A DNA stretch of 42,110 bases from NCBI GenBank assembly GCA_017639935.1, contig JAGFWP010000047.1, positions 1 through 42,110 of the forward strand, written 5' to 3'. The notes beneath the pieces were generated by a model. It was not told the DNA's origin. It was given only the letters and a program-made list of their open reading frames with translations, and made no database searches. This document shows positions 897-3,027 of the stretch, piece by piece. The stretch is from Pelagibacteraceae bacterium (GTDB lineage Bacteria; Pseudomonadota; Alphaproteobacteria; HIMB59; GCA-002718135). The position numbers and the translations under genes are program-made. The stretch's first letter is position 1; each line of letters opens with the position of its first letter.

Positions 897-935
897 ATAT
901 TAGGTTTGATATGGGAGAGATATCGAACCTAATAT
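897..935. repeat. Near-perfect 16-bp inverted repeat with 7-bp centre at recombinase start
   Basis: Left arm ATATTAGGTTTGATAT (897-912) and right arm ATATCGAACCTAATAT (920-935) are complementary at 15 of 16 positions, and the mismatch is a G-T wobble in RNA. The spacer is GGGAGAG. The right arm overlaps the ATG (934) of the tyrosine recombinase. Arms of this length around a 7-bp centre match the general layout of a tyrosine-recombinase core site, but could also be an operator or an mRNA hairpin. The purine-rich centre ends 14 nt before the ATG, which is far for a ribosome-binding site. No second copy was found in the window. Confidence 0.75.
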
Positions 936-2538: not shown

Positions 2539-3027
2539 TTGGATAACCTCTTAGAAAAAAAAACTGTCAGAACTGTTATTGATTATCTGCAAAACTTTGA
2601 TCCAAATTTATCTCTTATTCCTTTAGACACGACAGCAAGAACGGCAAAAGATGCAGCTCAGTCTCTTAATGTAGAAGTTGGAGCGATTGTAAAAAGTTTA
2701 GTTTTTAAGCCTTCAAATAAAAACCTGTATTACTTGTGTTTGGTATCTGGTGATAAATTTGTGTCCCTTAAAAAATTATCATTAAATATTAATGAAGATG
2801 TTGAAAAAGCATCTGCAAATGAAGTAAAAAGTCAGACAGGTTATTCCATCGGTGGTGTTCCACCTGTTGCTCATATAACCACTCCTGCTCAAATATTTAT
2901 AGATTTAAATCTAAAGCGTTTTGAAAAAATTTATGCCGCAGCAGGACATCCATATGTTGTCTTCGGCATTACTTTTGAACAAATTTGTCAAATCACTAAC
3001 GGTAACATTATTGATTTTGTTGAATAA
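2539..3027 (+). CDS. YbaK/EbsC-family aminoacyl-tRNA deacylase
   Basis: A 162-aa single-domain protein of the YbaK/ProX superfamily, which hydrolyses mischarged tRNAs such as Cys-tRNA(Pro). The family pattern is visible in TARTAKDAAQSL near residue 32, GAIVKSLVFK with the conserved lysine near 55, and SIGGVPP near residue 100. The start is TTG, chosen because AAGGA (2525-2529) sits about 9 nt upstream and no ATG occurs near the conserved N terminus. It follows the HNH gene by 5 nt and converges with the pterin dehydratase gene, overlapping it by 20 bp at the 3' ends. Which YbaK subfamily it belongs to is not certain. Confidence 0.85.
   Translation: MDNLLEKKTVRTVIDYLQNFDPNLSLIPLDTTARTAKDAAQSLNVEVGAIVKSLVFKPSNKNLYYLCLVSGDKFVSLKKLSLNINEDVEKASANEVKSQTGYSIGGVPPVAHITTPAQIFIDLNLKRFEKIYAAAGHPYVVFGITFEQICQITNGNIIDFVE

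Follow-up and report, generated by a model that had tools for sequence, protein, structure and literature searches.

The inverted repeat at positions 897 to 935 of the window, the 42,110-nucleotide stretch of DNA analysed here, most probably represents a chromosome-dimer-resolution site of the dif/Xer kind (we would put this at roughly 80%), served by a single recombinase and lying inside the promoter of that recombinase's own gene. This reading draws on the site itself, its conserved linkage to the gene, its single copy, an asymmetric and conserved spacer and arms that change with the recombinase clade, as well as on the absence of XerC/XerD from the family and SAR11 genomes surveyed, the presence of FtsK-gamma and the location of the site at the terminus in nine relatives. 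From these sequence comparisons we infer binding, recombination, dimer resolution and autorepression: recombinase protomers would bind both arms; in dimeric sister chromosomes the two terminus copies of the site would meet at division, with FtsK activating or orienting the reaction; and strand exchange in the 7-bp centre would turn the dimer into two monomers. Bound recombinase would also block its own transcription, keeping the recombinase level low. As a counterpoint, small genomes may tolerate losing dimer resolution.

The geometry of the repeat is as the preliminary description had it: the arms at 897-912 and 920-935 are complementary at 15 of 16 positions (94%) around the spacer GGGAGAG at 913-919, and the right arm runs into the ATG, covering the first two bases of 934-936. 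When the 42-kb window was searched for arms of at least 16 nt with at most one mismatch and a spacer of 4-12 nt, only this repeat and one at about 41889 were found, while 30 windows simulated from its dinucleotide statistics contained no repeat of that grade; the 897-935 repeat is thus far beyond chance. The other strong repeat, at about 41889, also has arms of at least 16 nt, with a spacer of 10, and lies near the window end. The promoter and the site comprise the following features.

875-880, + strand: -35 hexamer TTGACA, from the sequence; SAR11 loci have the same box at an equal distance from the site
896-901, + strand: candidate -10 element TATATT, 15 bp after the -35 box, proposed from the run ACTTAATATATTA common to SAR11 promoters
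897-912, + strand: left arm ATATTAGGTTTGATAT of the dif-like site, a proposed recombinase half-site, from the repeat search; the slot holds TTACTAAYGATAA in SAR11 and TTACGATAA in the window's own family
913-919, + strand: 7-bp central spacer GGGAGAG, the proposed crossover region, from the repeat search; SAR11 spacers are likewise 7 bp long
920-935, + strand: right arm ATATCGAACCTAATAT, from the repeat search, reaching two bases into the start codon

Because the site overlaps both the -10 region and the start codon, autorepression would be expected, and a role of the site as autorepressor is plausible. Read as RNA, the site strand has a predicted fold of -19.4 kcal/mol with a z of -3.7, and its loop GGGAGAG resembles a Shine-Dalgarno sequence, as would suit a hairpin that controls translation of the recombinase. 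However, transcription from the proposed promoter would begin within the left arm or beyond it, leaving the full hairpin out of the mRNA, and the SAR11 arms are imperfect yet preserve the GATAA/TTATC core, an indication of recognition by a protein; we regard control by such a hairpin as very improbable.

The recombinase gene and its neighbours are arranged as follows.

934-1905, + strand: proposed cognate single tyrosine recombinase of 323 aa, Cre/Xer-like according to PF00589 (E 3.6e-13), alignments and the predicted fold
45-767, - strand: SIR2-family gene (PF02146), the usual left neighbour across the family; in most of the family genomes compared it holds this position and is 60-83% identical
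1919-2533, + strand: HNH/endonuclease-VII-like gene (phrog_3322, E 4.7e-24), missing from this slot in the relatives examined
2539-3027, + strand: YbaK/aminoacyl-tRNA editing gene (PF04073), the native right neighbour, 61% identical in the relative G001, where it directly follows the recombinase

Alignments show the catalytic set of the 934-1905 recombinase to be complete (R157/R158, K184, H271, R274, H297 and Y306). Its predicted structure (mean pLDDT 84) is matched best by Cre-loxP complexes, with a TM of about 0.76, and next by XerA, an integron integrase and XerH. With 53 bits against the XerD model (cut-off 329.6) and 42 bits against XerC (335), the protein lies far below XerCD. As a single query it had no matches in IMG/VR and the genome collection; relatives there were found with an alignment query, and those nearest to the window protein among named organisms are Pelagibacteraceae (SAR11), including Pelagibacter HTCC9565, at up to 46% identity. 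Other tyrosine recombinases of the same genome were considered as Xer candidates and set aside, as they look like phage-type integrases.

Of 110 family genomes, 81 encode a related recombinase (about 31-46% identity, nearly always one copy), which normally adjoins the same SIR2 gene. It is preceded by TTGACT and then TTACGATAA CTGTAA TTATCGTAA, and the remaining flank diverges; mean per-position identity is 1.00 within the site and 0.81 further upstream, 5' of the -35 box. The 18-bp core CGATAACTGTAATTATCG, spacer included, is found just upstream of the recombinase in about 75 genomes from five genera, one copy per genome except for one genome with an unrelated second match. The 6-bp spacer of this type A site, CTGTAA, is asymmetric and conserved across the five genera, and it is retained in genus g6, in which the same site is inverted relative to the gene. 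In the window the arms are longer than in other lineages, and the spacer GGGAGAG matches no other lineage; the window's genus is represented here by one genome only, so its site is known from that single genome. A divergent locus on contig C6 of genome G062 (about 68427, L115) encodes a recombinase 31% identical to that of the window beside a correspondingly changed site, TATGATAA-GTGTAA-TTATCATA.

None of the 110 family genomes, the window's own included, contains a match of XerC/XerD strength, the best reaching 56 bits, although these genomes are incomplete; most of the weak matches to the XerD model are the same recombinase or other integrases. In the sister family, by comparison, most genomes have two proteins at about 190-226 bits (XerC/XerD). 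FtsK-gamma is found in 87 of the 110 family genomes, the window's own among them. On seven long family contigs GC skew switches sign around the site, with the cumulative maximum 8-26 kb away. To the right of the site in the window, the skew is mostly negative, as expected; the contig begins 900 bp to the left, which leaves one side only to be read.

These observations bear on whether the palindrome could be an operator only, at which the recombinase or another regulator represses the gene while recombination happens elsewhere or never. In every lineage the site does overlap the stretch from the -10 element to the start codon, and there is a precedent in IntS of KplE1, an integrase reported to be tightly regulated at its own att-overlapping promoter (PMC2951348). 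An operator, however, needs neither an asymmetric spacer that is fixed across five genera and unchanged even in g6, whose site has the opposite orientation to the gene, nor a terminus position, and no alternative single-copy dif candidate was noticed in the sequences examined. We therefore consider an operator without a recombination function unlikely.

The dif-like arrangement recurs in SAR11, where GATAA-N7-TTATC occupies the same slot in 74 of 76 loci, with TTAATTG or TTAATGG as spacer in 71. Between the site centre and the ATG there are usually 21 nt in SAR11 and 18 nt in the window, and mean per-position identity in SAR11 is 0.98 in the site versus 0.52 upstream. The recombinase is the only clear Xer-like one in 50 of 50 SAR11 genomes, three of which have a second weak or fragmentary match; since genomes and loci were picked by recombinase similarity, this figure gives no prevalence for SAR11. 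No match of XerC/XerD strength was found in the same 50 genomes, although these are incomplete; 48 of them have just one copy of the site, and FtsK-gamma is present in 20 of 24 SAR11 genomes. From the cumulative skew maximum to the site it is 1.9 kb in Pelagibacter HTCC9565; a second SAR11 genome gives 3.5 kb. In a SAR11 sub-clade with 304-aa recombinases, both arms are changed symmetrically (TTTCCGATAA/TTATCGGAAA) and the spacer is kept, which is what a recombinase reading the arms would lead one to expect. In SAR11 AG-325-C03 (L330, about 2813-2905), a second left half-site with its spacer lies about 40 bp beyond the complete promoter site, resembling a remnant of an integration or a duplication.

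Within the family, the window's genus appears to carry a replacement. Between SIR2 and mfd, the window and G001 are collinear except for the extra HNH gene; neighbouring proteins are mostly 55-84% identical (one 46%) and the recombinases 36%, the G001 recombinase being 83% identical to that of another genus. A tree grouping the window with type A alone is rejected (p 5e-5), while grouping it with SAR11 (p 0.36) or with the A and B types together (p 0.40) is not. Over the 38 nt from the -35 box through the left arm, the window shares 26 positions with SAR11 (median) and 17 with type A, against a null of 13.2 +/- 2.5 with a maximum of 21 in 2000 shuffles, and its 7-bp spacer is like that of SAR11, the family's type A having 6 bp. 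The likeliest explanation for these sequence relationships is that recombinase and site were swapped together in situ, with a SAR11-like donor. The HNH gene at 1919-2533 probably arrived with the replaced unit: a search of the family stretches returned no homologue, and one homologue at 37% identity (L365) lies beside a SAR11-type recombinase.

The preliminary description had proposed that the repeat is the core site of a recombinase. This is supported by its upstream place, kept in about 75 family genomes and 74 of 76 SAR11 loci, by its conserved asymmetric spacer and by arms that both vary with the recombinase clade. Two further parts of that proposal, that the site is an element's own and that recombination there changes expression of the recombinase, are not supported, given the single copy, the fixed place between SIR2 and YbaK, the lack of an inverted partner and the terminus location in relatives. 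A second copy of the 39-bp site, for which a search had been proposed, is absent from its own genome (1.33 Mb in 70 contigs, 92% complete). The same description would have given up the idea of a recombination site if there were no second copy and only a promoter palindrome. Taken literally, this is what we find, but the argument does not apply to a dif-type site, because such a site is single copy and recombines with the sister copy in a chromosome dimer.

The same evidence speaks to the possibility that a mobile element has integrated here, with 897-935 as its attachment or core site and the 934-1905 recombinase as its integrase. A tyrosine recombinase beside an HNH nuclease, related recombinases on viral contigs and, in G061, a second recombinase directly against a dif half-site would fit such an element. 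But the genome holds no second site copy, the SIR2-YbaK slot is where family chromosomes carry their own recombinase, and the site shows neither att duplication nor an element-sized insertion, making this origin improbable. Less probable than any other explanation we considered is an invertible or excisable promoter switch for phase variation of the recombinase: a recombination site within a promoter could in principle flip it, but inversion requires a second, inverted copy, and none was found in window or genome. On contig C2 of G061 (53598-57123; L116, L171), a second SIR2 gene and a type B recombinase abut the native recombinase. The junction is a hybrid site, TTACGTTAA-CTGTAA-TTATCGTAA, with roughly 25 kb resembling G062 to its left, an arrangement suggestive of an element that inserted at the dif-like site, or else of a chimeric contig.

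Among 52 more distant relatives, GATAA-N6/7-TTATC lies within -182 to +6 of the start in seven, compared to 0.08 expected; these are viral and Bacillota relatives (L319, L388, L409, L412, L415, L427 and L430). The gene-linked site therefore seems to be an ancient trait of the recombinase family. Scanning viral contigs for ACGATAA-N6-TTATCGT gave none with the family spacer among the loci examined, and the window palindrome had no match in IMG/VR.

As to FtsK guidance, the KOPS octamer GGGNAGGG shows a polarity toward the site of 19:1. We dropped this as evidence because permuted G-rich octamers of the same composition give similar values, the effect not being specific to that octamer. The window contains a weaker candidate.

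1522-1529, - strand: weak KOPS-like octamer GAGTAGGG, pointing at the site; the octamer flanks type-A sites on both sides in the family

In the family, GAGTAGGG flanks the type-A site inward, about 302 bp to the left and 287 bp to the right, in 30 and 34 of 38 loci, respectively (L010-L038, L110-L129). On the right side it is encoded by the codons CCC-TAC-TC, which are kept despite the AT-rich codon use of the gene; this suggests that the octamers act as a signal in the DNA itself, for example as a motif that orients FtsK.

The nearest structural comparison is Cre/loxP, which belongs to phages and plasmids and has a spacer of 8 bp. Its solved structures are the closest in both sequence profile and fold, and it shares with the system described here one recombinase, symmetric arms and a short asymmetric spacer, but here the locus is a fixed chromosomal one, at the terminus in the relatives measured. 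Single-recombinase systems already known are XerS/difSL, XerH/difH and XerL/dif (PMC5357621, PMC2731167, PMC9765430). With dif/XerL of Legionellales (PMC9765430) our system has in common that a lone divergent recombinase, overlooked in earlier surveys, replaces XerCD, that the inverted arms are long and uninterrupted, that the site is at the terminus (here in the relatives measured) and that mobile elements exploit it; xerL, however, lies more than 400 kb from dif, whereas here the site is in the recombinase's promoter and can overlap the start codon. XerH/difH is alike in that a single recombinase is as a rule linked to the site, which lies close to the switch in skew and has inverted repeats with a short centre, but its arm sequence is different and the window fold is nearer to Cre (TM 0.76) than to XerH (TM 0.5-0.65). 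XerS/difSL, too, is a module of a single recombinase with the site adjoining its gene; the centre of difSL measures 11 bp and its arms are unequal, in contrast to the 6-7 bp and near-perfect symmetry seen here.

On balance, it seems probable that an undescribed one-recombinase dimer-resolution system, whose site sits within the promoter of its recombinase and probably autoregulates it, serves SAR11 and a second streamlined lineage, and that it moves as a recombinase-plus-site cassette replacing the resident in situ, as in the window's genus. The survey by Carnoy and Roten in 2009 listed Pelagibacter ubique as being without dif/Xer and took this absence as a sign that streamlining can dispense with dimer resolution (PMC2731167); in the open-access literature, to which our search was confined, we found no report of dif/Xer in SAR11 and no revision of that claim. 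If SAR11 indeed has a one-gene, one-site system, the 2009 conclusion on Pelagibacter would fall, and a group of very abundant marine bacteria would gain a terminus marker and a testable function in chromosome segregation. In the window's genus, the cassette swap would directly exemplify how a recombinase is exchanged jointly with its cognate site.
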